Positions 6,332 to 61,313 of a stretch of 64,000 bases of DNA are shown piece by piece (position 1 is the stretch's first letter; each line of letters starts with the position of its first letter). The notes below the pieces were generated by a model. The model was given only the letters and a program-made list of their open reading frames with translations, did not search any database and had not been told where the DNA came from. Both the position numbers and the translations under genes were made by a program. The stretch comes from Mesostigma viride (lineage: Eukaryota > Streptophyta > Mesostigmatophyceae > Mesostigmatales > Mesostigmataceae): assembly GCA_009746045.1 (NCBI GenBank), contig RPFO01002263.1, positions 93,501 to 157,500 of the forward strand, written 5' to 3'.

Positions 6332-6986
6332 AATGGATGGATGGATGGATGGATGGATGGATGGATGGATGGATGGATGGATGGATGGATGGATGGATGG
6401 ATGGATGGATGGATGGATGGATGGATGGATGGATGGATGGATGGATGGATGGATGGATGGATGGATGGATGGATGGATGGATGGATGGATGGATGGATGG
6501 ATGGATGGATGGATGGATGGATGGATGGATGGATGGATGGATGGATGGATGGATGGATGGATGGATGGATGGATGGATGGATGGATGGATGGATGGATGG
6601 ATGGATGGATGGATGGATGGATGGATGGATGGATGGATGGATGGATGGATGGATGGATGGATGGATGGATGGATGGATGGATGGATGGATGGATGGATGG
6701 ATGGATGGATGGATGGATGGATGGATGGATGGATGGATGGATGGATGGATGGATGGATGGATGGATGGATGGATGGATGGATGGATGGATGGATGGATGG
6801 ATGGATGGATGGATGGATGGATGGATGGATGGATGGATGGATGGATGGATGGATGGATGGATGGATGGATGGATGGATGGATGGATGGATGGATGGATGG
6901 ATGGATGGATGGATGGATGGATGGATGGATGGATGGATGGATGGATGGATGGATGGATGGATGGATGGATGGATGGATGGATGGAT
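6332..6986. repeat. (GGAT)n microsatellite
   Basis: About 164 perfect tetranucleotide copies. Long ORFs reading MDGW or HPSI are artefacts of the repeat, which has no stop in any of several frames. Confidence 0.95.
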
Positions 6987-7178
6987 TAATTAATTAATTA
7001 ATTAATTAGACTCGTGCTCCCGTTGGGGAGTCACGGAGCATTAACCCCGATGAATGGATGGATGGGCGCACACATTCCTACCGGTCTAATCTATCTACAT
7101 TGGCTACATACTACATCTATCTAACAACATTCTAACTACATCATCTATCTAGGCAGCCGCACGCTGCCCTGGGGGGAG

Positions 7179-7367
7179 CTATCTAGCGTGCCTCCCGCGG
7201 GATTGCACACGCGGGCGCTTCCCCACTGGGGGGGGCTCGTTGTCCTCTATGACCTGGGCCCACTTGGCCTTGTCCATCATCTTCTTCCAAATCACGGAGA
7301 GGCCTAGGCCCCCCATGTCCTCTACTAGCTGTTCTTTGAAGGTGCGGGCCTTGCGGCGTCTAACGTG
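7179..7367 (-). pseudogene. LINE reverse-transcriptase C-terminal fragment
   Basis: Minus-strand codons read [20 protein letters not shown], then a [17 protein letters not shown] segment, ending at a stop at 7179-7181. This resembles the basic C-terminal end of non-LTR retrotransposon ORF2 proteins. A 3' UTR of about 170 bp follows (7010-7178), ending in the hairpin and (TTAA)n tail at 6987-7050. The fragment splits a (GGAT)n array that is uninterrupted in the right CACTA-1 copy, so it is a 5'-truncated LINE insertion into the microsatellite. Stop-free coding is only 62 residues; the family assignment rests on motif resemblance. Confidence 0.5.
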
Positions 7368-8008
7368 GATGGATGGATGGATGGATGGATGGATGGATGG
7401 ATGGATGGATGGATGGATGGATGGATGGATGGATGGATGGATGGATGGATGGATGGATGGATGGATGGATGGATGGATGGATGGATGGATGGATGGATGG
7501 ATGGATGGATGGATGGATGGATGGATGGATGGATGGATGGATGGATGGATGGATGGATGGATGGATGGATGGATGGATGGATGGATGGATGGATGGATGG
7601 ATGGATGGATGGATGGATGGATGGATGGATGGATGGATGGATGGATGGATGGATGGATGGATGGATGGATGGATGGATGGATGGATGGATGGATGGATGG
7701 ATGGATGGATGGATGGATGGATGGATGGATGGATGGATGGATGGATGGATGGATGGATGGATGGATGGATGGATGGATGGATGGATGGATGGATGGATGG
7801 ATGGATGGATGGATGGATGGATGGATGGATGGATGGATGGATGGATGGATGGATGGATGGATGGATGGATGGATGGATGGATGGATGGATGGATGGATGG
7901 ATGGATGGATGGATGGATGGATGGATGGATGGATGGATGGATGGATGGATGGATGGATGGATGGATGGATGGATGGATGGATGGATGGATGGATGGATGG
8001 ATGGATGG
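7368..8008. repeat. (GGAT)n microsatellite
   Basis: About 160 copies, the other half of the array split by the LINE fragment. The flank after 8008 matches the flank before 36333 in reverse complement. Confidence 0.95.
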
Positions 8009-13506: not shown

Positions 13507-14193
13507 AGTTAACGTTTTTATAAAACGCAATGTGTAGGATATGGTTGCAATGCAGCAATGTGTGAATATGGTTGGAAACGGAGCTTTGTTAAAATTGGAT
13601 AATGTTACAGCGCTCACACACTTGAGGCTTGTACACGAGGTTGCCAAGTCAAGGCAATACACGTGAGGCGGGCTCGCAAGAGATGCCCGATTGGCACTGG
13701 CCTATTCTTTATATACTTGTGCACTGTGCTTGCTAGTCCTGAGCAGCCTAGGAGGCCTGCTCAGTAATAACACTCCCGGTACAGTATTCACTACCTGTAC
13801 AGCGCCCAGTTCCTATACAGTAGGTTTGCTATACAGTACAGTGACCACAGAGCACAGTCCACAGTGACTATTGCATCTGCACCTAGGACCAAGCCTGCGG
13901 TACCAACAGTCCACAGGTTAAGGTTCCTATTTCCTGCGTACGACGTATTAATCCAATACCGTCGTAGGTTCAGCACCTAATTCCTGTCAGCCCAGGAATT
14001 ACTGTCGACCCCATATGTCGTCGGCAAATATTCACGTCCGACTTAGAAGAACAGCCGGCTCGCGCTCGCGCGCGACCGGGAAGTCGGAACGTCATAACTT
14101 TCTGGATACTTGTCGGAATGAACTCGTTCCGGTGCCGCTGGAATCGCAGAGAAATGCCGAATCAGGATCACGCCAATGCGCTTGGCGTTAACT
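13507..14193 (-). repeat. Element 1 3' LTR
   Basis: 687 bp, near-identical to 28613-29300 and to the reverse complement of 30407-31102. The termini are an 8-bp perfect inverted repeat, AGTTAACG/CGTTAACT, instead of TG...CA. A TATA-like TATATAAAG lies on the minus strand at about 13707-13716. Confidence 0.9.
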
Positions 14194-14946
14194 CCAATCC
14201 TTTCTTTTCTTGAGCTGTAGCAGCTCACACAAGTCTACATACAAACACACACAATGGGTACTGGATATCCTCCCCGACTACAAGTCACAACCCGCTGGGC
14301 ATGACAGTCAGCTTGGATTCCTTATCATATGTACATAGCACCCATACTGGTTCAGGAGCACAAACAAATTACAATGAGTCCCTATCCCTTCACGGGAGGC
14401 TCGTTGTGTTACCCATGTACAAGAGGTTGGCCAACTGTGGCAGCCCATAGGTGTTCAGCTAAGAACTTGAGAAGTATGTACAACCTTCAGGACCTTAGGC
14501 GAAACCCCACAGATCACCCACAACAGCTCATCAGAAAACATTGCTGACCCCCAGACGGGAGTCGGCGCCGGTCTGCTGCCCCTTATCGAACCAGACACAA
14601 CATCTACACGAAGCACATGCAAACACAAGCTCCTATACTCGTTCCAACCGTGGAAAATCAGGGGACCTGTCGCCACCTCACCAGCATGGTGGATGGGTCA
14701 GCCAGTCCGTGAAACTCCGCCTTAAGACGGCACCATGCAGGGAATCGAACCCCGCCCACAAACCATGCCAGATCTGGGGAAACCTCAGACTGAGATGAAA
14801 ACCCCAGATAGACATCTCTCCATCAGAGACAATGTCAGACATTCCCACACCAGAGACATGTCTCACCCCTCAAGGTGTGCTCAGGATTATGTACAATCAA
14901 GCTCCCAGCCTGATATCCAGAGACTTAAGTACCCAGCTCTCAGCTT
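14194..14946 (-). other. Element 1 3' untranslated region
   Basis: About 750 bp between the RNase H stop and the 3' LTR. I see no domain or convincing ORF. It includes a GAGGGGTGAGACATG purine-rich stretch but no clear polypurine tract directly next to the LTR. Confidence 0.5.
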
Positions 14947-15400
14947 TTAGACAGATAGACCGACTTGACAGTCAGCATTCATGAGCTTCCTCAGTACATT
15001 GTACTGGGCTGGGGCCTTGTGTGGCAGCTTTGTCAATGCATCAGCAGGGTTCTCCTCGCCAGGGATATGCTTCAAGTCAACCAAACTGGCCAACTCCTTC
15101 AGCAACAAATAATCCAGGTCCCGGCTTCTGGCCAGCTGCTTGTGAACAAACTGGACCATACCCATGCTGTCTGTTAGCAAGAACGTCTCCATCTGCAAGG
15201 TCCAAGGGGTAACTGAAGCCAGCTCCAGCATTAACTCCTTTATGTACAGGCTGGACTGGATCCCCTCGCATATGGCCCTGCATTCTGCCACATCTGAACT
15301 GATACAGACCCTCTTCTGCAGTCTGCTGTACCATGCAGCTGAACAAACTTGCCCTGCTCTGATAAAAAGCAAACAGAGCAGCAGATCTCCCCCTGACCTT
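14947..15400 (-). pseudogene. Element 1 RNase H
   Basis: The shifted frame gives AAWYSRLQKRVCISSDVAEC, FLLTDSMGMVQFV and EENPADALTKLP, the Glu, Asp and Asp blocks of Ty1/copia RNase H. The preceding VDSSMDAR block is in the RT frame, so one frameshift splits the domain. It stops at 14947. Confidence 0.8.
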
Positions 15401-16851
15401 GGTAACCTGGCGAGCATCCATGGAACTGTCAACAAAGATCTCCAAGGTGATAGGCTGGGTAAAGTCAATCCCAGACAAAATCAGATCAGGGGTACTCTCC
15501 ACCAACCGGGCTATGACTCGAGGCTTCTCATCCTCAAGCACCTCATCAGGCATTCTGCTATGGACCATCAAAGACGGACCACAGATGCTGGCAAACCAGG
15601 CCCACATGCCTCTCAACTCAGGTCCTGCAGCCTGGGTGATCTTCTCTGGCAAGGCCTTCACAATGGTCTGTTTATAATCTCCTCCAGCCTGAAGCCTGAT
15701 ACTCCACTCCCCATCCCTCCTGAACAGGGTAGCCTGCATTCCACAGAACACTACAGGCTTGTTGGGCTCCTGCCACAGCTCCTTGCCCAGTGAAAACTTG
15801 CCACTGATGACAGGAATAAACTTCTTCAGCCAGGTCGTGGGGGCTAGCAAATGCAGATCATCTCCATGCAAACTAGCATACACTGGCAGACCCTCCCATT
15901 GGGCCAGCAGCAAACAGGGATCAACTGAAGACACTCTCAAGCCACACTCACTGATCAGAGCTTCCTGCAGCGTGAGTCTCCAGATGATTGGGCTCGACCT
16001 GAGTCCTTCCAGGCCCTTCAGAATAACCAGGAATTGTTGATGCAGCTCCAGCTTCCAGATGGCAGGCACCTCAACACAGTAAGGCTCATCCTGCTTCCAC
16101 ACCCTCCTGGCCACTTCTGGATCAGATTTTAAAAATGCCCTCTTGAAGTCCAGCAGCACTGATGACATAGCTGCTCCCCTGTTCAGCAACCCCACGTAGA
16201 GACATAGCAAAATTCTCCATGTGTCGTGTAGCATCCCTGGCGTGTACAGCTCCTCTCCTGGCAGACTCCCCGTGCCGTGATATTCATTCAGGACAGGCCT
16301 GACATGGGGCACTGATACCTCATCCACAACCTTCCTCTTCAGCACAAATCTCAAAGCAAGCTTCCTTGATGCTGGGGGACGTCTGTCTGTTGGTGCAGCA
16401 CACTCAAACTGCAACCACTCCTCCAATGCCTTGGAGAAGGCGAGCTTCCAAGCCTCAAACAAAGTAGGCGAGCTCATCTCTTGGACTAGCTGGTCATATG
16501 TCAAAGGAGAGTGTGCAGCAAGGCTCCTGTGAGTTATGCCAATACTGCTGGGGTGCAACACAGCTGGAATCACCAAACTGGCTGCTGGGGGCACCTCCCC
16601 TTCATCCCATTTTACACCCTTGACCGGCTTGACCCTGCACCTGATTGGAAATGTTGTCCTGAAATTTTCTAGGGGAATCATCCCCCAGCTATCTCTTTTC
16701 AGAGCTGTAGCTCTGATAGAAATCCCAGGATTGCCCAGAAAATTCTGACCCAAAATCACAGGGCCATCATAGTCCTCTAGGACAAGGAAGGTCACATCCA
16801 CACCCATGACAGGGGCAGTAACCTCTCCCAACACCCTTAGATGCGTCCTAC
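15077..16851 (-). pseudogene. Element 1 protease C-terminal half and reverse transcriptase
   Basis: The open frame starts inside the inner LTR at 16954, but true element-1 sequence resumes at 16851. It reads GVDVTFLVLEDYDGPVILGQ, the second half of a retropepsin-like fold with its ILG motif. A linker follows, then a Ty1/copia-type RT: RKLALRFVLKRK, LLDFKRAFLKSDPE (first catalytic Asp), KGLEGLRSSPIIW, SVDPCLL and SLHGDDLHLL at about 15868-15842. The usual YVDD is HGDD here. The RT frame runs into RNase H (VDSSMDAR), then shifts at about 15340. Polymerase for the retroelement cDNA in intact relatives. Confidence 0.85.
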
Positions 16852-17373
16852 AGTTAATGCACTCGTGCAAATGGATGCGAACGTGTGTTGGATTATGCAA
16901 TGGCTGGCATAATATCAACCCATGCAAGCTTGCCAAGCTGGATTGCATGGGCACGTAGGTTAGGGTAACCTAGCTATCCTGTACTAGTGCTAACCAATGA
17001 GGTGCTGGCTCCATCCAGCTAGATCTACTCCAGCTAGGACTGATACGATGCCCACAGGCAACGACTGCCTAACAGCACTACGTGGACGGTCCTGGACCTC
17101 CCCTAGGACCTCCGTACAGGACTAGCACTGCAACCACCTTGTGGTCTGCATCACAGCTCATAAACCCTACCACGTGAATACCCACGTGCGTGTGCACTAC
17201 ATATCTCAGTGCTAATATCTAGCACCCACGTGCCCATCATGGCACGTGCGGATCTAAATCCTAGTAGAGATATGTCCAGTGTACTACACTACCGTCCATG
17301 TCCGTATCCCACTTGGGAGACGGGGACAACGCCACGTGTACTGATAGTCTAGGCCTGAAGCCCTAGAATAACT
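16852..17373 (-). repeat. Inner element 3' LTR
   Basis: 522 bp, AGTTAATGC...AGAATAACT on the plus strand. The upstream sequence on the minus strand (AAAGAAAAGTAATAATGGG) is purine-rich and may serve as polypurine tract. Confidence 0.92.
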
Positions 17374-17713
17374 CCCATTATTACTTTTCTTTGGGGAGTG
17401 AGGGGAAGACTCTTCCCACAACCCACTCATATGCCAACCACTACTGATAAGCAAGGTTCCCACAGGGACAACCAGGACACTGAAAGAGATGCATTTATAA
17501 AAGCGCCCATAGCTCCTCCGTGTTGGATACAACATCCCACTGGTTGGGTGCCTGTGTTGGGAAAAACCATTGCCAGAAAAATATGACCACACGTTTTATT
17601 GACAAAGAACAAGCCATCAATAAAGGAGGACCCTTCTGACCTCAAGCTTTAATGACGCAAAGAGAGTCTTACGGGTGGGACACTTCAGACCCTGCCACCC
17701 CATGACCACCCTC

Positions 17714-18268
17714 CTATCTGGTGCTAATAGCCCTAGGCTGAGGCACTTCACCCTCTGCCATTGTATATGGGTTCATCAGCGTGTATAGGACTCTGTACTG
17801 AGGCCCTGCAGCCTGTGGCACTTTTGTGAGTGCATCTGCTGCATTGTCAGGGTCTCGGATGTGAGTCTTGGACTCCAGATAGGTACACTCCTGCTTGAGG
17901 ACAATCCAGTCCAAATCGGTGTGCACAGCCAAGGGGTTGTCCAGGAAAGAGAGAAGGGATTGACTGTCAGTCAGCAGATGGGATTTGACACCAGCATAAC
18001 TACCAGCCTGATGCTGCAACCACACCAGCAGATGGTTCAAGTACCTGGCATGTAACACAGCAGATACCACAGCACGGCATTCAGCTACATTGCTGCTGAC
18101 TGCCTTGCGCTTGTGGAGTCTGCTGAACCAGGAAACCAAAGACTGCTTGCCAGTGGGGTTAGACAACATAAAGAGACCTGCCTCTCTGGCTTGTACCTTA
18201 GTGACTACCCGTGACTCCATGGAACTGTCCATCATGCATGTGATGTGGATGGGTTGGAACAGATCCAA
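17714..18268 (-). CDS. Inner element RNase H
   Basis: 184 codons with CMMDSSMESR, SSNVAECRAVV, HLLTDSQSLLSFL and DNAADALTKVP, the four acidic blocks of Ty1/copia RNase H. The frame starts about 55 bp below the RT stop, so it would belong to the polyprotein if the intervening frameshift were absent. The 3' UTR (17374-17713) carries nothing recognisable. Confidence 0.8.
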   Translation of the reverse strand: MDLFQPIHITCMMDSSMESRVVTKVQAREAGLFMLSNPTGKQSLVSWFSRLHKRKAVSSNVAECRAVVSAVLHARYLNHLLVWLQHQAGSYAGVKSHLLTDSQSLLSFLDNPLAVHTDLDWIVLKQECTYLESKTHIRDPDNAADALTKVPQAAGPQYRVLYTLMNPYTMAEGEVPQPRAISTR

Positions 18269-18323
18269 GCATGAAGAATAAGGGGAGGGCCATCATGTAA
18301 CACCTGTTTAATAGCCCTAGACC

Positions 18324-18887
18324 CTACCTCCATGAGGACATCATCATCCACTCTGCTGACCACGCCAGATGAGGAGCACAAGTGGCACACAGCCAACCTA
18401 GCTTACCCCTAATAGTGGGACAGAGATCAGGAGTGATGTCAGAGGGAAGAACATCTTTGCAAGACATGACATACTCAGGGGATGCTTTGAGAGAACACAC
18501 CCACTCCTTCTGCTCCTTAAACAGGTTCAGAATGATGCCACAGAACTTGACAGGATCTTTCCCCAGCTCCAGCTGCTTGCCTAATTCAAAGCTAGCAGAC
18601 ACTTGAGCAATGAAATCCTCCACAGCTGCCCTGGGACCAGTAATGAGCTGATCATCCCCATGCCACACAAACATCATCATACCAGCAGGATGAGGGATGG
18701 TGAAGAAACAAGGGTCAATATCATCATACTGGGCCCCCAGCTTCAGGAAGACCTCTTGGGCAGACAGCCTAAAAATTTTAGGTGCTGACTGAAGCCCTTC
18801 TACCCCCAAGTTAGGCCTTAATGAGGTTCCTTGATGTCCCCAGACCAGACTTTGGGAGTGTTTACCACATAGACTTGACCCCTCCAC
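18324..18887 (-). pseudogene. Inner element RT C-terminal half
   Basis: A shifted frame gives VEGLQSAPKIF (RT motif usually YGLKQSPRxW), DIDPCFF and MFVWHGDDQLITG, the active-site block with HGDD in place of YVDD. PVKFCGIILNLF and an RT thumb-like part follow, then a stop at 18324. The overlap of 70 bases with the 850-codon frame marks a one- or two-base frameshift at about 18820-18880. Confidence 0.8.
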
Positions 18888-21370
18888 ACCTTTTGGGCTA
18901 TGTCAGGGTTGCCTTTAAGGAAGGCTCGTTTAATGTCAGTGGCTTTACACACGTAGTCCTTACCAGCATTCAGATGGTGAAGGAAAGTGGCCAACAGGAC
19001 CTTAAGAGACGTCTGCTGAATACCAGGGGTATACAGTTCAGCCTCTGTTAGCTCAGTGGAGCCCCTGAACTCCGTGACACAAGGTCTGGCATGAAAAATG
19101 GGAGGTGTCCCATCTGCCTGGGGTTTATGCTTGCAGACAAACTTCAGTCTGAGCTTTCTGGCCCCTTGTGGCAGTGCCTCAATCGGTGTTACAGGTGGTA
19201 CCTGGGACTTGCTACGTGGATCAGGACAAACCCATTCCTCTCTAGCCCTGTTAAAGGCTTCCATCCATTTCAGAAAACCAATCTGCGTTTGACAGTCTTT
19301 GACCACATCATCATAGGACAAGGGAGACATGGACGCTATGTCCCATCTACCAAGCCCAAACGCAGAGGGGTGTAGCTTCTGAGAATGAATGAGGGAATCA
19401 ACACAGGGTTCCTGACCTGGGAGGTATTTTATGTTGACAGCATTGATGGCTGCTTCCAGGCCATCACTGATCTGTGTTAAAGGAATTTTAAAATGGTCCA
19501 GGGTGACCTGCCCCACCCCAGTCACACTCAACCTCCCAGCTGAGATGACTACTCCAGGGTATGAGACAAATGGTTCCCCCAGCAGTGCATTCCCCTTGTA
19601 GCCCTCTACTACCTGGAAGGGAGTGGGCACACCCAGAATGGGAATTAGCACTTGGCCTTTGACTGCCATTTTTGTTTTGCCTGAAAAATCTGACACTCTA
19701 GCCCAGGGCGAGCGTTGCAGACTTAGGCCAGATACAGCTTGTGCACTGATGATGCTCACCTGTGCCTGTGTGTCTACTGCCAGAATACTGGGATCCTGGT
19801 TAGATTCACCCACAGCATTGACTTGTGCTGCACCTGCTGCCATTTGTGCCTTGGCAGTGTGTGCTCTATGTAGAGCTTTTAGAGCCTCAGCAAATTTATT
19901 CCTGGGGACAACAGGATCTGCTGCTTCGTGTGGCTGTTCCTGAGATGAGGGAGGAGCGACCTGCTGCTCATCCAGTGCACGTTCCTCCTGCCCAGTTGGA
20001 CCAGTGGGCTGTGGTGGGGCTGCACCACTGAGGAACACAGGAGCGTCTATGGTTGTGTTGCTTGCATCAGCTATGTCCCTGGCCAGTTCACTGGGTGAGA
20101 CCAACCCACCAGACTGAGGCTCTGAATCCATGTCCAAGAATTCTACCCCTGACACGTCTGCCAAAGGAGGGTAATAAAGCTTCAGTCTATGCTTGCCAAC
20201 CATTCGCTCTCTGTGATGCTGAATAGTCACCGTGTCACCTGTTTCTGACAACCTGATGATTTCAGCTGGACCATGCCATCTACCAGAGTGGGCTTTGTTC
20301 CCTTCCCCCTCCCTATAGTAGAGTACCTGATCCCCCACTTCAAACACAGGCCTGGCATTACTTTTATCCTTTTTTGCCAGCAACTTGGCCAAGTGTTGCC
20401 TTTGCGTGTTGTAGTGGTCTAGTACCTCCTGAGAGTAGCTACCTGATTGCAGGCCAATTGATGTGATTTCACCAAAAGGAGAAGACATGAGGGGTTTGGT
20501 GTTCAGAGTTCTGCACACCTCAGCTGCCCACGCTGTCCTATCAGCATAGCTCCCAGACTCTGCTGTCCTGGACTCATTTTTCTTTATGAGGTCCCTGATA
20601 GCACGCATGGTACGTTCAATCATCCCCTGGCGTTCATGATCTTGAGCCCCAGCAATGTCTATCTTGGGCAGATCAGGATAATCTTGTATCCACGTGAACT
20701 GCTGATCCAGCATTAGTTTTTCCTGAGGATGATACCGTGCTAGTGCAATCAGCAGGGCTCTGTGCAGTTGTTCATTGGCCATGCCTGGCAAGGGTTCTAT
20801 CACCACAAACCTAGACCAGGCATCTTTTAGGACCAAGTAATACACCGTGTCCTTCACCAGGTGTATCACATCCCCTACTAGCTTTCCTCTAGCCAGTGGT
20901 GGGGTGGCCACATGCCATCTCTTGGGTTTAGGTGCATGCAGTTGGCACGCTTCACAGTGCTTCCTGACATGCCTGCACATCTGTTCCAGGTCACGGCCAT
21001 CAATTTTATTGGCCAGCCTTTCTGCCACTGCCTCATGCCCCATTGCCTTGTGTAGCTGCTGGGCTAACCTGGCATAGGATATAACCTTATCTGCTGCTGC
21101 ATCTAAGGAGGCTATAGTGGGATCTTGGGCCACCTGTGCTAACGTCATGTCATAAGCCAGGTCCCAATCCACGTCCTCACTGTCAGGCAATACAGAGCAA
21201 ATAGAGGGTACACGGCCATTAAGAAACCAGGGTACAGGAGACTTACAGTCGTCCTGAGTGCTGGCTTGTTTTGGGGTGCGCCCCGTCGAGGCTCCCTTCC
21301 TGGGCTTGTTGCAGCGTCCCCCTGCAGGTAACGGGTGGCGGGGCTCCCAGCAACCTGGGCACACATCCAC
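18818..21370 (-). CDS. Inner element pol: integrase, protease-like, RT N-terminal half
   Basis: 850 codons. Integrase zinc domain: H107-x4-H112 and C139-x2-C142. Catalytic core: D167, D222 (LMLDQQFTW) and E252 (HERQGMIER), with 29 residues between the last two. A C-terminal module follows at about 345-402 (GDQVLYY, RWHGPAEIIRL, HRLKLYYPPL), GPY/F-like. A linker is followed by ILAVDTQAQVSIIS (D533), DFSGKTKMAVKGQV and NALLGEPF, a retropepsin-like domain at about 530-625. RT begins at about 735 (KLRLKFVCKHK), with D812 in ATDIKRAFLKGN. The frame ends at 18818, with RT continuing in another frame. The start at 21370 is arbitrary: the frame is open upstream into the gag zinc knuckle. Confidence 0.85.
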   Translation of the reverse strand: MDVCPGCWEPRHPLPAGGRCNKPRKGASTGRTPKQASTQDDCKSPVPWFLNGRVPSICSVLPDSEDVDWDLAYDMTLAQVAQDPTIASLDAAADKVISYARLAQQLHKAMGHEAVAERLANKIDGRDLEQMCRHVRKHCEACQLHAPKPKRWHVATPPLARGKLVGDVIHLVKDTVYYLVLKDAWSRFVVIEPLPGMANEQLHRALLIALARYHPQEKLMLDQQFTWIQDYPDLPKIDIAGAQDHERQGMIERTMRAIRDLIKKNESRTAESGSYADRTAWAAEVCRTLNTKPLMSSPFGEITSIGLQSGSYSQEVLDHYNTQRQHLAKLLAKKDKSNARPVFEVGDQVLYYREGEGNKAHSGRWHGPAEIIRLSETGDTVTIQHHRERMVGKHRLKLYYPPLADVSGVEFLDMDSEPQSGGLVSPSELARDIADASNTTIDAPVFLSGAAPPQPTGPTGQEERALDEQQVAPPSSQEQPHEAADPVVPRNKFAEALKALHRAHTAKAQMAAGAAQVNAVGESNQDPSILAVDTQAQVSIISAQAVSGLSLQRSPWARVSDFSGKTKMAVKGQVLIPILGVPTPFQVVEGYKGNALLGEPFVSYPGVVISAGRLSVTGVGQVTLDHFKIPLTQISDGLEAAINAVNIKYLPGQEPCVDSLIHSQKLHPSAFGLGRWDIASMSPLSYDDVVKDCQTQIGFLKWMEAFNRAREEWVCPDPRSKSQVPPVTPIEALPQGARKLRLKFVCKHKPQADGTPPIFHARPCVTEFRGSTELTEAELYTPGIQQTSLKVLLATFLHHLNAGKDYVCKATDIKRAFLKGNPDIAQKVWRGQVYVVNTPKVWSGDIKEPH

Positions 21371-21375
21371 ATCAG

Positions 21376-22711
21376 ATCCAAGTTCGGGTTTGCCCTTCCA
21401 GCAATCATCCCTCTCATGCCCCTTGCATGAGCACCTGGTGCAGTACAGGGTGGAGTCGTGAGGCTTACCTTTTTGACTAGGCCCCTGAGAGGGCCCTGCC
21501 TTACTGCCTGTGTTCCCCTTTCCCCCCTTGTCTGATTTCCCTGCTGCTTGGATGACCCCCCTGCCTTCTTACCTTGCTGGGGACCCTTGAACACCGCCTT
21601 GACCTGAGCTACCACCTCCTTGATGAGCTTCTTCCTGCTAGGCCCTGCACCGTCCTGACTACCCCCCCCTTGGACTTTGTTAACCTTGGGTTCCTTGACA
21701 GTGGAGAAGGGTTCTAGGCTCTGCTGAATGAACAACATGGCCCCCCTAAAATCATCCCACTTGTCTTTAAGGCCAGCCAGCAGAACTGCATTGGTGTTCT
21801 TGTCTAACTCGGCTTTGGTGAGCCACTGATGGATCAGGTACTTAGAGTTGAGCTTCTTCAACTCTCGTCCCTGTCTATGTACAGGACATACTGTTTGTTG
21901 TCCGTACGTAGTCAGACTTGTTGACTTTGTATGAAGCCAACCATGTGAACCCCTTGAGAGCCTGCAGGTGTTCCCCCTTGGTCAACAGCCCTTTTAGGTC
22001 TGCTATGAATTCTGTGAAGATTTGCACCTCATCTGCCCCAGGCGTGCTTGCCCTCCTCTCATACATCTGCACCATTTGTTTTATGCTAGGTGCAGATTGG
22101 TGGATCGTGTTAGACACCCTAAGAGCAGGAAACCAATCACGGATATTATCATGGGACCATGAGTGTTCTATCTTGAAAAGAAACTCAAGTGCATCCTCCT
22201 GCACAAATCCCTCAGCTAGACCTGGGAAGGTAATCCTATCTTCCCTACGGGATGCATCAAACCTGGGTCGCTGTGGTACAGCGACAGTCGCTTGTGGTTG
22301 AGGTTGCTGCTGCTGCTGCTGCTGCTGCGGTTGCTGTTGCTGTTGCTGCCGCGGCTGCTGCTGCTGCTGCTGCTGTTGCTGATGCTGTGGCTGCTGCTGC
22401 TGCTGCTGGGTTGTCGCTCCAGCGTTGCTGCCGCCCGCCATACCCCCGGTGCTTGCTGGTGCCCCTCCCCCTGGTGCTCCCCCGTCCTTCCCCTCGTCAC
22501 CATCCTCCTCTGGATGCGACCGCTGGGGCGTAGACGATGGTCCACACCCCTCCTGCCACTTTCCTTGGCGGACCCGCTTGGCGGCCCTCAGCAGTTGCTC
22601 GATTGCCTCTGCTGCCCGCGCCCGCTTGGTCGGGTTGGCCTCCGCTGCGTCCAGCTCCTGGTGGAGTAGTGCAGCGATGCGGTCCAGCTCCAGGTCCGTG
22701 TCGGTCTGCAT
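21376..22711 (-). pseudogene. Inner element gag with polyglutamine tract and CCHC knuckle
   Basis: Starts MQTDTDLELDRIAALLHQEL. A Q-rich tract (about residues 100-145, CAG/CAA repeats at 22300-22410) precedes a helical capsid-like region (FPGLAEGFVQEDALEFLFKI). The frame ends at 21875 and resumes in another frame at about 21861 (KYLIHQWLTKAELDKNTNAV). It shifts again near the G-run at about 21550 into the frame holding LYCTRCSCKGHERDDC (C-x2-C-x4-H-x4-C, about 21445-21400). That frame is continuous with pol, so gag and pol may form one polyprotein. Two frameshifts are seen. Confidence 0.7.
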
Positions 22712-22778
22712 GGTGTGTTTGGGTGTGGGGGTGGGGGGTGGGGTGTGTCTGCGCCAGCGCGAACACGCTCACGCGCGT

Positions 22779-24037
22779 TTAACAAGGCCGTTCCTCGCTG
22801 GGCCCTTGCTGGCTGTGGGGTGCGCATGAAGTCCAATACCGCGTCCTCGGCAGCGGCTCATGTGGCGCCAGACCACGCTCAAACCGGATTGCGTCTCCGA
22901 ATTCTCCCTGCAGAGCCCAGGTCCTGGCCGCCTCCTGATACCTGCGCAGAGCCCGCTCCTCCTTGCGCATGCGCCTGTCTAAGGCACGAGCATTCCTCCT
23001 GCTCTTCCTTGCCACCGGCCTCCTGCTCACGCCTCGCCGGGCCCACCATTGTTGCCAGTGTCGCCTCTGACCTCTTCATCGCCGCGTCCAGCCTCGCCTG
23101 GTGACGCCGGGTCTTCTCTGCTGCGTCGTGCGCCTTCGCACGGAGTCGCTTCATCTCCCGATGCTGCGCCTCCCTGCTGCGCGCTCCCTGGCCAGACTGT
23201 TCTCCGCCATGGACCGCACCATTGCCCTCTTGGCCTTCCGCTGGCAATGCCTGGCGTACTCTATCTTGGCCAGACGCTCTGCCTCCACCATGGCCGGGTC
23301 CATCAAAACCAGCTCCTCTCCCGCGCTCCGGGCTGCATTTCCACCGACGAGTCGGTCTCCTGCAGCACATCTCCAGCCATGCGCCTGAAGGAGCGCGCTG
23401 TGCGCCTGTGCGCAAAGGTGTAAGCTCGTTCTTCTTGCGGAGAACGTATGGGGGCGCCTCTCGCGCGCCTGTCGGCCCCGCGCGCAGCCCGCCCTCGCCA
23501 CTCGATCCCTCTCCAGCTGCCGCTCCGCGAGCTCCCGGGCTATTCTGTCAATCTCAGTCTCCGCCCGCAGCTGAGCCTCGCGCTGAGCCTCCAGCTCGCG
23601 CTGCTGCTCCAGCTCCTTGCGAGCTGGGCCTCCTGCCGAATGCGCTCTGCCTCTCGGCGGAGCAGCTCCTCGCGTTTCGCCTTGTCCTCCGGCAGCTCGA
23701 GGTCCACGAGGTCCTCGTCCTCGTCGTAGCCATCTGACGGGATGTCCCCCACTATCGGCACCACCCTCCCCGGCCCCGTAACCAGCTCGGGTGCCGTGGG
23801 CTGCCCTTCCGCCGGTGGTGCGTTGGGACGCCATACATTGTACAGCAGCGGCCTTGCCGCCAACTGATCCAGGAACCGCGGGTCCTCGTCCGAAGACGAG
23901 CGACCACTGCCGGCATCGCTGCCAGCGTGATCATCCCTCCCCTGCCGGCCCCGCACTGCCGCCCGGTAGTCCAAATCTTCGGACGATGGGGACAGGCTTG
24001 ACTCCGAAGAGCCCTCACGATCAGAAACGTTCGACAT
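22779..24037 (-). pseudogene. Inner element 5' ORF, charged coiled-coil protein, frame-broken
   Basis: Starts MSNVSDREGSSESSLSPSSE with an acidic N-terminus (DEDEDLVDLELPEDKAKREE). It becomes a long arginine/glutamate/alanine-rich coiled-coil-like stretch that continues in two other frames (around ELEAQREAQLRAETEID and HREMKRLRAKAHDAAEKTRR), ending near 22779 with a basic frame. Total span about 420 codons, GC-rich. At least two frameshifts are needed to read through. It sits directly upstream of gag, the same place as the 5' ORF of element 1, but I see no sequence similarity between them. Confidence 0.5.
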
Positions 24038-24081
24038 TTTGGAATGATAAAGATGAAAACTGTGAGAGTTTTATAAATGCA

Positions 24082-24603
24082 AGTTAATGCACTCGTGCAA
24101 ATGGATGCGAACGTGTGTTGGATTATGCAATGGCTGGCATAATATCAACCCATGCAAGCTTGCCAAGCTGGATTGCATGGGCACGTAGGTTAGGGTAACC
24201 TAGCTATCCTGTACTAGTGCTAACCAATGAGGTGCTGGCTCCATCCAGCTAGATCTACTCCAGCTAGGACTGATACGATGCCCACAGGCAACGACTGCCT
24301 AACAGCACTACGTGGACGGTCCTGGACCTCCCCTAGGACCTCCGTACAGGACTAGCACTGCAACCACCTTGTGGTCTGCATCACAGCTCATAAACCCTAC
24401 CACGTGAATACCCACGTGCGTGTGCACTACATATCTCAGTGCTAATATCTAGCACCCACGTGCCCATCCTGGCACGTGCGGATCTAAATCCTAGTAGAGA
24501 TATGTCCAGTGTACTACACTACCGTCCATGTCCGTATCCCACTTGGGAGACGGGGACAACGCCACGTGTACTGATAGTCTAGGCCTGAAGCCCTAGAATA
24601 ACT
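24082..24603 (-). repeat. Inner element 5' LTR
   Basis: 522 bp, one difference from the 3' LTR by eye. The sequence just downstream on the minus strand (TGCATTTATAAAACTCTC) shows no TGG-type primer-binding site. Confidence 0.92.
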
Positions 24604-24753
24604 CCTACCACTGAAATCAGACACCCAGGGGCAACTTGGTTCTCCGACCAGCAGTTCTCCTGTATGCTGAGGTCCCATCACAGAAACCTGTGCATTGGTA
24701 TCTATCTCCATGGCAGCTACCTCAGGTTCATCCAACTGGACAAGCTTGGACAC
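24604..24753 (-). pseudogene. Element 1 protease-like domain, N-terminal half
   Basis: The frame contains MEIDTNAQVSVMG, matching the D-[ST]-G-A active-site loop of retropepsins with Asn in place of Gly, followed by PWVSDFSG. Coding is cut at the 5-bp target duplication of the inner element. Joining 24604 directly to 16846 restores an uninterrupted frame (FSGRTHLRVLGEV). It lies downstream of the integrase coding region, not between gag and integrase. Confidence 0.65.
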
Positions 24754-26268
24754 TCCTTCTTGGCTCTTTGCAAAGCCTGTACAATATCTGATAGACGCAC
24801 ACCCCTAGGCCTGGTGTCGGGCCGTTCCGGAGGTGCAGCCTGTCCGCCTGCTTGCCCAACCACCGTATGTGAAGGTACCCCAGGGGCCGGGCCAGGGTCA
24901 CCCTGAGGGCTCGATACAGCTGTAGCACCCTGATCAGGAAGTTCCACGTCACCCCCGCCTTGTACACCAACGGGCACCTGGAAGAGGTCTCCTTGATTAC
25001 CTCCCCGGGGACGGATCTTTGACCAGGACAGACGGTGCACTGCTTGGGAGCCATCAATGGCCACCCAGCACTTATGGCCAGCGGCTTCTACTCGGGTCAC
25101 CACCCCATCATGCCAGCTGCCACGTTTCCCTGGAAAGCTTGGTTCCTTCCACACAACAACCTGTTGTCCAACGTTAGGTTCTAGGACACTCCAGCCCTTG
25201 TCTTTCTGCCTCAGCTTGAGGAACTTGGCCTCTAGCTTCTCCTTCCATGCCTGCTCAGCATCAGCTGGCAGCATCCTGGTGTGCAGCATAATAAGAGGAT
25301 TGATGGCAATGTCACCAAAGAACATGGGAGTCCTGAGGTTCAGCCTATCCTCCACAGAACGTAGCCATGCAGATGTCACAATGGCAGATGACGTCCTTGG
25401 AATTAATCCTCTCCACCAGCAGCACAGTCTTGATCTCTTGGATGGCTCTCTCCACAACCCCTTGCTGGCCGTGGCTCTCCCTGGGTGTAATCAGCAACTC
25501 TGGAAATTCTGGCAGGTTCTCACAGCACTCAAACTGAATGTCACACTGCAGCAACTCCAACCCAGGGTACCTGCTCCTTGTCAGCTTCAGAGCAGCAATT
25601 AATGTAGGCTTCTCCATGTCAGGCAGGATCTCTAGGGTCTTATACTTGGTTTATCTGTCCACTGCCACCAGCAGCTTCAAACCCCTGATTCTCTGAATAT
25701 CTACCTGCACATGGCCTGGCTGCAAAATAGGAGACCTGGCATGAGACTGCTTGGGCTTTCTAGCAACTAGCCTGCACTTGCAAGCTTGAGCAACCTGTTG
25801 GCAGATGGAGTACAACTCACTAATTCCTCCCAGCCGTCTAGCAACTTGCAAAGACTGAGCTGCATGGCCAAACATGGTATGCAACCTTGAGGCAATGTCA
25901 TACAAGAGAGAAAATCTTTTATTGTCATTATTAGCACTCAAGGTATGTACAGATCCCTTATGTACAGGAGGCACCAGGGTCGTGCCTGTCAGACTGTCTC
26001 CAGCCCTATCCTCATCCTGACCATCCTGTGCCAGTCCTGCACGGTCAGAATGCTTCTGAGATCCACCTGGGTCCACATCACCAGGTCCTACCTCAGGCTC
26101 AGCACCGCCATGGCGGGCACGTTGGCGAGTAACCACTGCAGCTACAGCTGGCATACTCTCTGTGGTAACCAAGCTTGCCCCATCGTGTCCAATAGGCTCT
26201 GTCACTAGAGCATGGGGCTGCCCCTCACTGCCGTCACTAGCAGCTACATTACACACCCCTGGGGGCAC
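24717..26268 (-). pseudogene. Element 1 integrase region, frame-broken
   Basis: 26268-25651 starts with a low-complexity linker, then LHTMFGH (H-x4-H) and an ACKCRL cysteine pair of the zinc domain, ending at a stop after LKLLVAVDR. The next frame (25617-25345) gives LLQCDIQFE and then HGQQGVVERAIQEIK, the second Asp and the Glu of the DDE triad with 29 residues between them. The frame from 25457 to 24717 holds a C-terminal module (VGQQVVVWKEPSFPGKRGSW and WVAIDGSQAVHRLSW) similar in layout to a GPY/F-type domain. At least two frameshifts or stops make it inactive. It catalyses cDNA insertion in intact relatives. Confidence 0.7.
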
Positions 26269-26301
26269 CCTCCAGGGTTCAGGGATGTGTGCAGGCTCAA
26301 G

Positions 26302-27490
26302 TCAATGATCAGCAGCCTTGCCCTTGCCCTTATCCTGGGATGGACCAGCCTTCTCCTTGCTGCCACCCTGAGCGGGCTTGCTCTGACCTTCCTGCCTCAG
26401 GTACGAGGGACACTCATTCCTGAAGTGACCCTTCCCTTGGCAAAAATAACATTCCACCTGACTGATGTCCCGTGAGGTCCCACTGCTGGGCCCAGCCTTG
26501 GGAGGACCACCCACCCAATTGAAGTCAAACTGGGACTGTGGATGCCCCGACTTCGGCGGTGTCCCCCGTCCAGCCATTCTGCCACGCCCCCTCCTGGACC
26601 TTCCTCGACCCCTAGAAGAGGCCTCAGGCCCTCTCGAGGACGCTGGGCCCCCGTGGCCCGATCCCCTCATGGACTTAACCGCAGGTTCAGTGGCCCGTCC
26701 TCGTCCCCTTGACGTGGGCGCTTACCACCTACGTACTTGCCGCTGAAACACTCATACAGCTGGTCTGTCATGGCTGCCCAGCCATGGACCTGTCGCATGT
26801 GGATGGTCACATTATCCATGGTGACAGGATCCAGCTGCAGCGACTTGAGAAAGTCGCCCATGGCCATCCGATCTGCAACGAAGAATCCTTTGCCATGGCG
26901 TCCTCCCTCAGCTTGACAAAGTCTTCAAAGGCGTGGACCACTAGCTGCCCCTTGATGGGCTTGTAGTCCAGGTATTCTTGCTTCAGGTGAGACCCATCTA
27001 TGGTCCTCTTATCACTCAGGAACACCCTGAGTCGCGTCATAAACGCCGCCCAGGTGTCCCCCGCCGTGTGTCGCTCCCGGACGAACTTGAACAGCCGCCT
27101 CGCCGACTGCCTTATGTAGGCACTAGACGCCAGGATGCGAAGCTTGTCACCGGTGTAGATGTCCGTGTACAAGTTCATGTCCTCTAACATCCTCTCCGCG
27201 TCCCGGGGCTGCCAATTGTCCTTGATGGACTGAAACTGGCTGAGCACCGCGTACCCCTCAGCCACGGTCGGCCGCCTAGGTGCTGCTTGGTCTGCAGCTG
27301 GCGCGTTCTGACCGCCCTGCGATCCTTGGCTCTGATCATCTGCCAGAGCAGCCTGGTCTCCCAGCGCCTGGCCGTCACCGCGCCCATCGCGTCCATCGCG
27401 TCCATCACGTCCATCATGTCCATCCATCCCAGCGCCGCGCCGCTCGTAGCCCATACCGCGCCCCCGTTGGTCAATAGCACCCTCACTCAT
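26302..27490 (-). pseudogene. Element 1 gag with CCHC zinc knuckle
   Basis: Begins MSEGAIDQRGRG with DGRDGRDGRD repeats. The capsid-like helical region (about residues 75-225) includes YAVLSQFQSIKDNW and YIRQSARRLFKFVRE. A one-base loss after AMAK (about 26890) shifts the frame relative to element 2; the reading continues as FVADRMAMGDFLKSL and on to LYECFSGKYVGGKRPR. A further small rearrangement lies near 26690. The RG-rich tail carries CYFCQGKGHFRNEC (C-x2-C-x4-H-x4-C) at about 26451-26410, then a basic lysine/glycine end. Structural nucleocapsid protein of the retroelement particle by family knowledge. Confidence 0.75.
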
Positions 27491-27594
27491 GATGGCCCCT
27501 GTTCAGATCTGCTATACAGCCAGCCAAGTGGCCAAGCAGCAATTAAAGCAATATAAGCTACTGAACAGGAAAGGAAAATGACAAGTGTTACCAC

Positions 27595-28519
27595 TCAGTC
27601 AAGACCACCACGGTTACCCACGGGCGCTTCCTGGTTCTCCTTGTCGCTGTCGCTGTCGCTGTCGCTCACAACAATAAGCTCTGGCACCCTGCTACCTGCT
27701 GCGCCGTCGTCGACCCGCTGTCGGCCCGCGATGACAGAGTCGTCACCGTTAGTGTAGTAGACAGGTGACAACCCGTCGTTAACACCCCGCGGATTGTATC
27801 TTGGCACCTCGTGGTCGCCAAGTGCCTCGTCGCCTAGATCGGCGACCCCCACTGCGCCCAACTCAAGGTCACTGTCGTAACCAAGAGGGGCGAACTCTTC
27901 CCAACCAACGCGTCACACGAACGCGAAGGGGTTGGGGCAGTACCTGAAAAGGAACCCTTGCTCGCTCCGGAAACCTGCCGACTCGTGCCGCACGCTGTCC
28001 TCCGGTGATGGCTTCCGCAGCCGCCTCGACCTCTGCAAGCCGCCTGTAGCGCTCCGCCCCGCGTCGCTCACGTCGAACTGGCCCCGCTGCAACACCCTCG
28101 TTGCCGATTACGCCTGCGAACGTACGTTGTACACCCGCACCCGCTGCTGCCGGTACGAACTCGTGTCGCACTGCACCAGCTGTCTCCGCAGCCTCTCCTC
28201 GCCTAGCCGCCAACTCCGCACGCACCCGCTCAGCTAATGCTGTAATCACAGTCTGGATACCGACCAAACCGTGAAGCTCTTGCTCGATGTCGTCGATGCT
28301 CCGGTGCTCCGGAATGACGATGGTTTGGACGTGCCGCAGAATTCGCTCCCAATCCTCGACCTGGTCGTCGACGAATTGCACGAAGTTGCGATTAACAGGT
28401 GGACGATCTGCAAGCAATAAAGATAAATCTCGAACCACACGACGCAATTCAGGCGAAATTGAACCACCAGCAGACTGCCGAAACCGGAAATTCTGCTGCC
28501 GTTGTTCTTCCTGCACCAT
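27595..28519 (-). pseudogene. Element 1 5' ORF upstream of gag, unknown function
   Basis: Starts MVQEEQRQQNFRFRQSAGG. A helical middle has a VEDWERILRHVQ segment, an alanine/arginine-rich coiled-coil-like part follows, and the acidic tail ends SDSDSDSDKENQ. A 4-bp insertion near 27890 relative to element 2 shifts the frame, so it now reads as two ORFs (28519-27869 and 27861-27595). Intact length would be about 305 residues. It is separated from gag by about 105 bp. Canonical Ty1/copia elements start with gag, so this is an added gene. No domain recognised. Confidence 0.6.
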
Positions 28520-28612
28520 TCACCACCGGACGAGCTTCTCGCGTCGTCAACGCTGCACGCAGCAAACAGCAACGACCCTCCTGGCCGTTCCGTCGAGACG
28601 CCTTGTAATTTG

Positions 28613-29300
28613 AGTTAACGTTTTTATAAAACGCAATGTGTAGGATATGGTTGCAATGCAGCAATGTGTGAATATGGTTGGAAACGGAGCTTTGTTAAAA
28701 TTGGATAATGTTACAGCGCTCACACACTTGAGGCTTGTACACGAGGTTGCCAAGTCAAGGCAATACACGTGAGGCGGGCTCGCAAGAGATGCCCAATTGG
28801 CACTGGCCTATTCTTTATATACTTGTGCACTGTGCTTGCTAGTCCTGAGCAGCCTAGGAGGCCTGCTCAGTAATAACACTCCCGGTACAGTATTCACTAC
28901 CTGTACAGCGCCCAGTTCCTATACAGTAGGTCTGCCATACAGTACAGTGACCACAGAGCACAGTCCACAGTGACTATTGCATCTGCACCTAGGACTAAGC
29001 CTGCGGTACCAACAGTCCACAGGTTAAGGTTCCTATTTCCTGCGTACGACGTATTAATCCAATACCGTCGTAGGTTCAGCACCTAATTCCTGTCAGCCCA
29101 GGAATTACTGTCGACCCCATATGTCGTCGGCAAATATTCACGTCCGACTTAGAAGAACAGCCGGCTCGCGCTCGCGCGCGACCGGGAAGTCGGAACGCCA
29201 TAACTTTCTGGATACTTGTCGGAATGAACTCGTTCCGGTGCCGCTGGAATCGCAGAGATATGCCGAATCAGGTACACGCCAATGCGCTTGGCGTTTAACT
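28613..29300 (-). repeat. Element 1 5' LTR
   Basis: 688 bp. The sequence after its 3' end (going down from 28612, CAAATTACAAGG on the minus strand) does not start with TGG, so no standard tRNA primer-binding site is visible. Confidence 0.9.
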
Positions 29301-36332: not shown

Positions 36333-37330
36333 GCCATCCATCCATCCATCCATCCATCCATCCATCCATCCATCCATCCATCCATCCATCCATCCATCCA
36401 TCCATCCATCCATCCATCCATCCATCCATCCATCCATCCATCCATCCATCCATCCATCCATCCATCCATCCATCCATCCATCCATCCATCCATCCATCCA
36501 TCCATCCATCCATCCATCCATCCATCCATCCATCCATCCATCCATCCATCCATCCATCCATCCATCCATCCATCCATCCATCCATCCATCCATCCATCCA
36601 TCCATCCATCCATCCATCCATCCATCCATCCATCCATCCATCCATCCATCCATCCATCCATCCATCCATCCATCCATCCATCCATCCATCCATCCATCCA
36701 TCCATCCATCCATCCATCCATCCATCCATCCATCCATCCATCCATCCATCCATCCATCCATCCATCCATCCATCCATCCATCCATCCATCCATCCATCCA
36801 TCCATCCATCCATCCATCCATCCATCCATCCATCCATCCATCCATCCATCCATCCATCCATCCATCCATCCATCCATCCATCCATCCATCCATCCATCCA
36901 TCCATCCATCCATCCATCCATCCATCCATCCATCCATCCATCCATCCATCCATCCATCCATCCATCCATCCATCCATCCATCCATCCATCCATCCATCCA
37001 TCCATCCATCCATCCATCCATCCATCCATCCATCCATCCATCCATCCATCCATCCATCCATCCATCCATCCATCCATCCATCCATCCATCCATCCATCCA
37101 TCCATCCATCCATCCATCCATCCATCCATCCATCCATCCATCCATCCATCCATCCATCCATCCATCCATCCATCCATCCATCCATCCATCCATCCATCCA
37201 TCCATCCATCCATCCATCCATCCATCCATCCATCCATCCATCCATCCATCCATCCATCCATCCATCCATCCATCCATCCATCCATCCATCCATCCATCCA
37301 TCCATCCATCCATCCATCCATCCATCCATC
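36333..37330. repeat. (CCAT)n microsatellite, uninterrupted
   Basis: 998 bp of CCAT repeats, the right-copy equivalent of the two left arrays. Exact length should be treated with caution in any assembly. Confidence 0.95.
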
Positions 37331-38789: not shown

Positions 38790-39530
38790 ATGGCAATGCC
38801 GGCAGTTAACTATTACTCCGAATAAAGAGTTAAGAGGTTGGCCCTCGGCAGTCGGCATGGCGATCACGGAGCGATGACGGGGCGATGACGGGGCGATGAC
38901 GGGGCGTTGACGCGCGTGATGAATAGGATCTGTTTGACAGGCGGCGGCTATTGGTAATATAGATTGTTGATTAAGAGAAGAGTTTAGATGTTGGCCCGTG
39001 GGCGATGACGGTGACGGCGTCACCGTCATCGCCCTCGACGGGCGTCATGAATACGACCTTTTTGATATGCGGCGGCTATTGGTAATATAGGTCGTTGACT
39101 ACTACTCCGAATACAAATGTAAAGAGTTAAGAGGTTGGCCCTCGGCTGGCTCGGCATGGCGATCACGGGGCGATGACGGGGCGATGACGGGGCGTTGACG
39201 CGCGTGATGAATAGGATCTGTTTGATAGGCGGCGGCTATTGGTAATATAGATTGTTGATTAAGAGAAGAGTTTAGATGTTGGCCCGTCGAGGGCGATGAC
39301 GGTGACGACCGTCACCGTCATCGCCCTCGACGGGCCCGATGAAAAACCGATGTTTGATATGCGGCAGCTATTGGTAGTATAGGTCGTTGACTATCACTCC
39401 GAATAAACAGTTAACAGGTTAAGGCCCTCGGCCGGGCGATGACGGGGCGATGACGGGGCGTTGACGCTCGTGATGAATAGGACCTGTTTAATAGGCGGCG
39501 GCTATCGCTAATATATAGGTCGGATATTTG
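38790..39530. repeat. Tandem repeat with embedded hairpins, right CACTA-1 copy
   Basis: About three degenerate units of 200-300 bp, each with CGATGACGGGG runs, a TTGATAGGCGGCGGCTATTGG word and a block ending GTTAAGAGGTTGGCCCTCG. Two units carry long hairpins of GGGCGATGACGGTGACG and its complement. The left copy (2230-2530) has fewer units, so copy number changed after the two transposons separated. Confidence 0.7.
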
Positions 39531-40154
39531 TGTAGCACCCCCCTCCTTCCCACGGCAGGTACGCAGCGACTCGCTGTTGTGCTGGCTGCAGTTGTGTACC
39601 ACCTGTACGGTTTTTGTGTACCACCTCCCTCCTTCCCACGGCAGGTACGCAGCGACTCGCTGTTGTGCTGGCTGCAGTTGTGTACCACCTGTACGGTATT
39701 TGTGTACCACCCCCTCCTTCCCACGGCAGGTACGCAGCGACTCGCTGTTGTGCTGGCTGCAGTTGTGTACCACCTGTACGGTTTTTGTGTACCACCTCCC
39801 TCCTTCCCACGGCAGGTACGCAGCGACTCGCTGTTGTGCTGGCTGCAGTTGTGTACCACCTGTACGGTATTTGTGTACCACCCCCTCCTTCCCACGGCAG
39901 GTACGCAGCGCCCGGCTGTTGTCCTGGCTGCAGTTGTGTATGGTACCACCTGTACGGTATTTGTGTACCACCACCCTCCATGGCCCATGCAGCCCGGCCC
40001 GGCATCGTGCCGTCGCCGACCCGACAACGTTTTCTCGAACAACACGAATTTGAATTTTAGGGACTGGAGCGGCTGGCACGCTAGCGGCACGACCAACGGA
40101 ACAAGAGAACCGAGAAACTGTGGCCGCCAGGAGGATAAAGGTTTCAAGGCGCAT
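39411..40154 (-). CDS. Doubtful ORF with hydrophobic N-terminus reading into minisatellite
   Basis: A 247-codon frame starts MRLETFILLAATVSRFSCS, a plausible signal-peptide-like hydrophobic start, followed by a short proline/alanine stretch and then about five minisatellite-encoded repeats. The left copy keeps the same start (572-865) but stops after 97 codons because its array has changed. A longer frame on the opposite strand (39528-40412, 294 codons; left copy 314-1177) is also open in both copies, so open frames here may simply reflect stop-poor repeats. I recognise no domain. It could be an element-encoded secreted or membrane protein, or noise. Confidence 0.15.
   Translation of the reverse strand: MRLETFILLAATVSRFSCSVGRAASVPAAPVPKIQIRVVRENVVGSATARCRAGLHGPWRVVVHKYRTGGTIHNCSQDNSRALRTCRGKEGVVHKYRTGGTQLQPAQQRVAAYLPWEGGRWYTKTVQVVHNCSQHNSESLRTCRGKEGVVHKYRTGGTQLQPAQQRVAAYLPWEGGRWYTKTVQVVHNCSQHNSESLRTCRGKEGGATQISDLYISDSRRLLNRSYSSRASTPRHRPVIARPRALTC
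39540..39975. repeat. GC-rich minisatellite, right CACTA-1 copy
   Basis: Five or so tandem units of 87-88 bp, reverse complement of the array at 740-1165. Units alternate between a TTTTTGTG and a TATTTGTG variant, suggesting a higher-order two-unit repeat. Confidence 0.8.
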
Positions 40155-55051: not shown

Positions 55052-56080
55052 GCCCCGTTGTGCTTGTCGGTCAACAGATTTTATATTGCATTTGTGAGAT
55101 GATTGTGGGTGTCCATTTTGCACACCACCCACAGCCATGCTTGAGTGCACCGTTCCTTGTGTGTGTATCAATACAGTTGGTGTTCGTATTTGATCAGTTG
55201 TGCCATTTCATCGGGTTGTTGCATGCCATCTGAACATGTTCACTCCCCGTTGCCATTTTATCATACCAGTGTTGTGAGCTCAGAGCAATGGATGCATGAT
55301 GCAGTGTTGTGATTTAGTGTAGATATTGACGATGCCACCTTTGATCAGCATGATGGATGCTTGGCCAGCGATGGGTCGGAGGTTGACACTTGATGACCGT
55401 GATGACGATTGCCCTGAATGTTCAATATTGGTGTTTTTCTTAACATCCCAGTCGATATTTTTGCAATAAACCATGTCTCCCACGGCACATGACATTGTGG
55501 TGCATTTTATCATGCACCTAAGGGTGTTTCCAGCTTGTTTTGTCAGTTCCTTTCAGTACCCCCCTCTGGTTTTTCAAGTTGTCACCTGCGCTTAAGAACT
55601 TTCTCAGTGGCGAGTTCTTGGTGTCATCCTTTGAAAGCTTGCCCCGTACCGCTGCACGTGTTGTCTCTCCTGGCATTGCCACCTTGCCGTGTCCCACCTT
55701 GGCCTTTTCCTTCTCCATCTCTGCTGCGGCATGCACGCACTTCCTTGCTGCGGATGTGCATTATGCGTGCTTTGTGATATATCACTTCCCCTGAGTGGTT
55801 GTGATTTATCACCTTATCACATTTTGTTTTTCTGTGGGTTTGTGACATTTTGTGACACTTTGACATTTTGTGATAATGACGTTATCACAAAATATGCTGG
55901 TTTTATCACGTTTGTCACGTTTTGTCACAATCATGACATGTCTCGATCACAATTTGTCACAGTTTTATCACATTTTGTCACATTTTGTCACGTTTTATCA
56001 TTTTTTTATCACAAAATGTCACAAAAGTGACATTTTGTGATAAAAAAATATCACAAAATGTCACAGACCCCTTCCTAGTG

Positions 56081-59358: not shown

Positions 59359-59378
59359 GGTGCCCCCGTCTTGGCGGT

Positions 59379-61223: not shown

Positions 61224-61313
61224 GCAAGAATTTAATTACTAATAGTTATTGAATTAAACACAAGGGGTCTCACTAGTGCCGCTATATAGAAGGAAGAACG
61301 GTCAAGACGTTAT

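Follow-up and report, generated by a model that had tools for sequence, protein, structure and literature searches.

A probable Ty1/copia-kind retrotransposon lineage of Mesostigma viride with a retropepsin-like domain between integrase and reverse transcriptase

We analysed a stretch of 64,000 nucleotides of the Mesostigma viride genome (assembly GCA_009746045.1, contig RPFO01002263.1, positions 93,501 to 157,500 of the forward strand), hereafter the window, in which a long terminal repeat (LTR) retrotransposon lies on the minus strand, inserted in an older relative (the inner and the outer element, respectively). The inner element probably belongs to a Ty1/copia-kind lineage of LTR retrotransposons whose polyprotein runs in the order Gag-integrase-protease-reverse transcriptase (RT)-RNase H. 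As a variant of the Ty1/copia kind it deviates in domain order. For Pseudoviridae, the profile of the International Committee on Taxonomy of Viruses names protease, integrase and RT-RNase H as the parts of Pol (PMC8515867). Coordinates refer to the window, and all the features of the elements are on its minus strand. Elsewhere the window has long ATGG/CCAT tetranucleotide arrays at 6333-8008 and 36334-37330, whose shared flanks run in opposite orientation as an inverted duplication, and related tandem arrays at 747-1140 and 39525-39979, both with a unit of 85-86 bp.

Domain order in the inner element

The order was read in an 850-codon frame at 18818-21370 (18821-21568 and 916 codons from stop to stop, the gag CCHC knuckle being then included). 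The HHCC zinc domain of integrase occupies residues 107-142 of this frame (20945-21052; motif scan and subfamily alignment) and is followed by the catalytic residues D167, D222 and E252 at 20615-20872, the last two with a spacing of 29 residues (motif scan; Pfam rve E 3.8e-4, below cut-off), and by the C-terminal domain of integrase (GDQVLYY...WHGPAEII...HRLK; subfamily alignment) at 20165-20431. Downstream from it is the retropepsin-like domain, at 19505-19786, with the active site D533-T-Q-A-Q-V-S (DTQA at 19763-19774) and LLG at residues 596-598. The RT, at 18324-19321, is split over two frames, with DIKRAFL at residue 812 of the first and HGDD (18651-18662) in the second; the latter frame covers 18324-18887, and the stretch 18324-18817 belongs to it and lies outside the 850-codon frame. 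RNase H (MDSSME...AEC...TDS...ADALTK) is in a third frame at 17714-18268, assigned by motif and alignment, the region having no Pfam match. RT and RNase H continue in other frames because the window copy is frameshifted within RT.

Upstream from integrase, the gag zinc knuckle CTRCSCKGHERDDC (CX2CX4HX4C; motif scan) at 21401-21442 is in the same open frame as integrase, protease and the start of RT, and a second, atypical knuckle, CPGCW...H...C (CX2CX4HX7C), was read from the sequence at 21311-21361; it is present also in subfamilies B and C (see below) with slightly changed spacing. The rest of gag (21445-24037), with a coiled-coil-like N-terminal part, a poly-Q tract and a capsid-like part, is broken in frame and was delimited by comparison with the intact frame of the copy L021. 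The label gag is based on position and on the knuckle, no gag profile having matched the inner element or L021 in the Pfam scan.

The 5′ LTR (24082-24603, 522 bp, termini AGTTA...TAACT) and the 3′ LTR (16852-17373, delimited by the repeat ends) of the inner element differ at 1 position in 522 bp, and the insertion is therefore recent; GTAGG (minus strand) is the 5-bp target duplication around it. Both elements, inner and outer, have a purine-rich stretch in front of the 3′ LTR. Directly 3′ of the 5′ LTR of either element we found no TGG, as sought for a tRNA CCA-type primer site; the 5′ LTR of the inner element is followed by TGCATTTATAAAACTC. In Ty1/copia, the primer site at this place is usually complementary to initiator tRNA-Met.

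Domain order across copies and subfamilies

We searched the same genome with the frame and scored the best 53 of 8169 candidates, hence the counts are lower bounds. There were at least 58 matches, 48 of which ran unbroken from residue 122 or earlier to residue 821 or later, that is from integrase to RT (42 of the 48 without any stop), the remaining 10 being partial. Four subfamilies were read. Subfamily A comprises the inner element and L021, in which a natural single frame of 2110 codons encodes everything; subfamily B (L024, L026 and L030) has about 77% identity across the frame and is complete in its order; subfamily C is represented by L031, whose frame of 1429 codons extends from gag to within the protease and whose integrase shares 54% identity with that of A; subfamily D consists of the outer element and of pieces in L021, its protease pieces being 29-53% identical. 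In all four, integrase precedes and RT follows the retropepsin-like domain, as far as the pieces reach: the frame of C stops within this domain, while D is split over separate frames and its L021 pieces start with the domain.

The motif scan of L021 gave CCHC at 880, HHCC at 1010-1045, D1070, D1125, E1155, DTQA at 1436 and LLG at 1499, then DIKRAFL at 1715, HGDD ending at 1810 and the RNase H motifs at 1952-2087. The first-pass annotation had placed the integrase zinc domain and catalytic residues, a retropepsin-like stretch and the start of RT in this sequence in one 850-codon frame, with which the motif positions agree; the full order that it proposed, from gag to RNase H, is found complete in L021 and in subfamily B, the window copy being frameshifted with RNase H in another frame. 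HGDD is present in the RT of all 7 aligned sequences that reach the motif. The LTR ends AGTTA/TAACT are shared by A, the outer element and the B copies L026 and L030, and 5-bp target duplications were found in 4 of the 5 copies examined (inner, outer, L026 and L030) and not at L022.

As for the retropepsin-like piece within subfamily A, it was identical in 17 of 18 copies (L001-L018), even where the whole frame was 88% identical, and the synonymous divergence (dS) between A and B was low in the linker (0.34, against 1.2 in integrase); both observations point to gene conversion, or to recombination among the copies.

Two further proteins, from transcripts or gene models, each cover one of the two junctions: P0006 joins the integrase C-terminus to the protease and P0001 the protease to RT. 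Another protein, P0004 (239 residues), which is labelled Mesvir1 (Mesostigma viride), is 99.6% identical to copies in the genome searched, or 100% according to the search table. P0006, labelled Prorocentrum lima, is identical to L031 at 200 of 200 aligned residues, with a clean gap of 105 nt (GAG|GTACGT...CCAAG|; 7893-7997 of L031, corresponding to L003:873-977) between integrase and protease. The GT-AG ends and the consensus-like donor of this gap suggest a facultative intron spliced in frame, as seen in one sequence with a doubtful source label. The eukprot proteins P0003, P0005, P0006 and P0007 are labelled Prorocentrum lima or Lingulodinium polyedra; two of them are identical to copies in the Mesostigma viride genome except for the intron-like gap, which points to mixed libraries.

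The retropepsin-like domain and alternative explanations

The retropepsin-like region shows conservation between subfamilies (82%, 66%, 46-53% and 29-32% identity) and is under purifying selection, with a ratio of nonsynonymous to synonymous substitution rates (dN/dS) of 0.109, versus 0.157 for the integrase C-terminal domain. The AF2 prediction of the domain was of moderate confidence (pLDDT 62, pTM 0.59); all the 50 matches listed by Foldseek and VIA were retropepsins, none at a Foldseek E <= 0.001, and foamy virus entries were among those of VIA. The earlier assignment of residues 530-625 to a retropepsin-like stretch is therefore upheld by a predicted retropepsin fold, with moderate confidence. 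In the L021 frame the pattern D[STN]xA occurs once more only (in RNase H) and hhGxxh once, as LLG. Conservation, purifying selection and the predicted fold argue that the retropepsin-like signal is more than chance.

The Pfam profile gag-asp_proteas matched with E 0.17 in the whole frame and 0.0089 on the domain alone, both below the curated cut-off, a weak signal from sequence only. The glycine of D[ST]G, a feature of retropepsin family A2, is absent from every member showing the site: subfamilies A, B and C have DTQ, two copies of subfamily D have DTN, and P0001 has DTM (the motif scan of the L021 frame found no D[STN]G at all). This uniform replacement would fit a domain that descends from a retropepsin but has lost its cutting activity and has a structural role, for example in dimerisation of the RT part, the polyprotein being processed by a host protease or not at all. 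We regard this as doubtful, as the catalytic D, the T and the next A are kept (one outer-type copy, at L021 8324-8446, has S in place of A), integrase is under no stronger selection than the domain, and a survey of human endogenous proteases counts variants of the form DT[R/E/V/D/A]AD among those that may be active (PMC6058741). It is rather unlikely, too, that the element is a chimera, with a protease-RT block from a Ty3/gypsy- or Ddi1-like source, and not a copia element whose protease has moved. The profiles closest to the domain are gag-asp_proteas, Peptidase_A2_2 and Asp_protease_2, Ddi (DNA-damage-inducible) chains rank 1 and 2 by Foldseek and 1 by VIA among the matches listed, and the integrase C-terminus has a W.GP motif, all of which would fit such an origin.

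We considered it very improbable that a second, strongly diverged protease was missed between gag and integrase, the downstream domain being an extra copy. Copia-type proteases are diverse and can escape profiles, and the segment has conserved cysteines; however, in L021 about 115 residues separate the nucleocapsid knuckle (880-893) from the zinc domain of integrase (starting at 1010), part of them taken by the second knuckle, with no D[ST]G by motif scan in L021, B or C and no Pfam match in L021. Subfamily B has a single DSG, at position 350 in the frame of L024, and this sits behind the catalytic E of integrase. The segment is not similar to the gypsy protease: of 2000 shuffles, 460 and 783 scored as high, a comparison failed by the downstream retropepsin-like domain too. 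For a DGAS string of the outer element (around 26190), inspection by eye gave no hhG partner, and there was no profile match; the stretch of the outer element corresponding to this segment showed no profile similarity either. The first-pass annotation was hence right in seeing no protease-like motif between the gag knuckle and integrase. Finally, that misassembly, or nesting and rearrangement of copies, produced the order is nearly excluded in this genome: the window copy is indeed frameshifted and nested in a relative, but the order recurs on many contigs (48 of the 58 matches). Subfamilies A and B have it complete in naturally open frames, C has it up to the protease and D in broken frames, and its junctions are present in P0006 and P0001.

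Comparison with known elements

The name Ty1/copia-like, given by the first-pass annotation, has support for RT, which matched RVT_2 with E 2.6e-7 (L021) and 1.2e-6 (30.9 and 28.8 bits, both below the cut-off of 31.6, the first only just) and gave no match to RVT_1 in Pfam. With Ty1/copia (Pseudoviridae) the lineage shares an RT, probably of the RVT_2 type, that comes after integrase, a terminal RNase H (here by motif only), 5-bp target duplications, the CCHC knuckle and the possibility of a single gag-pol frame. Unlike Ty1/copia, it has integrase before the protease in the four subfamilies, a DTQ/N/M active site, LTR ends AG...CT and not TG...CA, no TGG adjoining the 5′ LTR, and HGDD in RT, the usual copia motif being YVDD.

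As in Ty3/gypsy (Metaviridae), the protease lies directly before RT and the C-terminus of integrase has a W.GP motif, a comparison based on the GPY/F motif of the gypsy integrase C-terminus; unlike gypsy, with its order gag-protease-RT-RNase H-integrase and RVT_1, the element has neither an RVT_1 RT nor integrase after RNase H. The canonical Ty3/gypsy element of the window (56064-61235, minus strand), with the gypsy order and a DNG protease, was used as a control with the same Pfam library, which recovered the protease (E 6e-10) in one frame and, in the frame after it, RVT_1, RNase H, H2C2 and rve; the tools therefore detect the normal order when it is present. Foamy virus protease-RT is similar in that the protease adjoins RT, perhaps as one working unit, but foamy Pol differs in having integrase last. 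In Gmr1-like gypsy elements pol domains have moved as well, but there integrase is what moved and the protease stays first. For moved pol domains as such these elements are a precedent, a passage on them placing integrase usually upstream of RT (PMC8220671).

The titles, abstract beginnings and passages covered by our literature search did not describe any element with its protease behind integrase. The assembly paper of Mesostigma viride counts, in a passage on repeats, 60339 LTR retroelements, the largest repeat portion (27.9%; PMC6947507), and copia is unmentioned in its main text and in that of PMC7027972.

Possible mechanism and significance

Gag-Pol would be made as a single chain in which, because the domain comes after integrase, the protease exists only once integrase has been translated. 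Two retropepsin-like domains would dimerise within the particle, as in retropepsins, and the dimer would separate Gag, integrase and RT by cutting, while the protease may remain joined to RT, like that of foamy viruses. An ancestor may have gained a protease copy beside RT, or moved the protease there, the copy before integrase being lost. These consequences for polyprotein processing are what we infer from the order, for an active site without the usual glycine. One could tentatively go further and see a deep separate lineage with four linked traits (Gag-integrase-protease-RT-RNase H; DTQ/DTN/DTM; HGDD in RT; AG...CT LTRs), a protease-RT unit and an output tuned by the facultative in-frame intron, a proposal that we hold with clearly less confidence than the domain order itself.

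Retroelement families are defined partly through the order of pol domains. According to passages of a survey of plant LTR elements, GAG-PROT-INT-RT-RH was the order of 5410 Ty1/copia elements, 8453 were Ty3/gypsy, the sorting was by similarity and order, and every element of unexpected order was dropped as a probable wrong prediction (PMC6317226); such a procedure would by design leave out a lineage like this one. A conserved retropepsin in which the glycine of DTG is missing would be a natural test of the need for that glycine, and with a protease placed after integrase its timing relative to Gag assembly becomes testable.

The outer element

The outer element (13507-29300) has LTRs at 28613-29300 and 13507-14193, 98.7% identical, and the target duplication CCTAC. 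It is older than the inner element, which is inserted within its protease-like region, and has the same domain order in broken frames. The knuckle is at 26302-26670 (zf-CCHC E 2.7e-5), with integrase pieces downstream at 25348-26301 (frames and subfamily alignment; no Pfam match), then the first half of the protease-like domain (IDTNAQVSVMG; frames and alignment) at 24604-24804; the second half (ILGQNFL), followed by RT (HGDD) and part of RNase H, is at 15080-16849 (frames and alignments; no Pfam match). In RT, this relative of the inner element is about one-third identical (32-36% over the RT region).

The target duplications of the two elements, GTAGG (inner) and CCTAC (outer), are reverse complements of each other, and those of two other copies differ; the match is probably due to chance.
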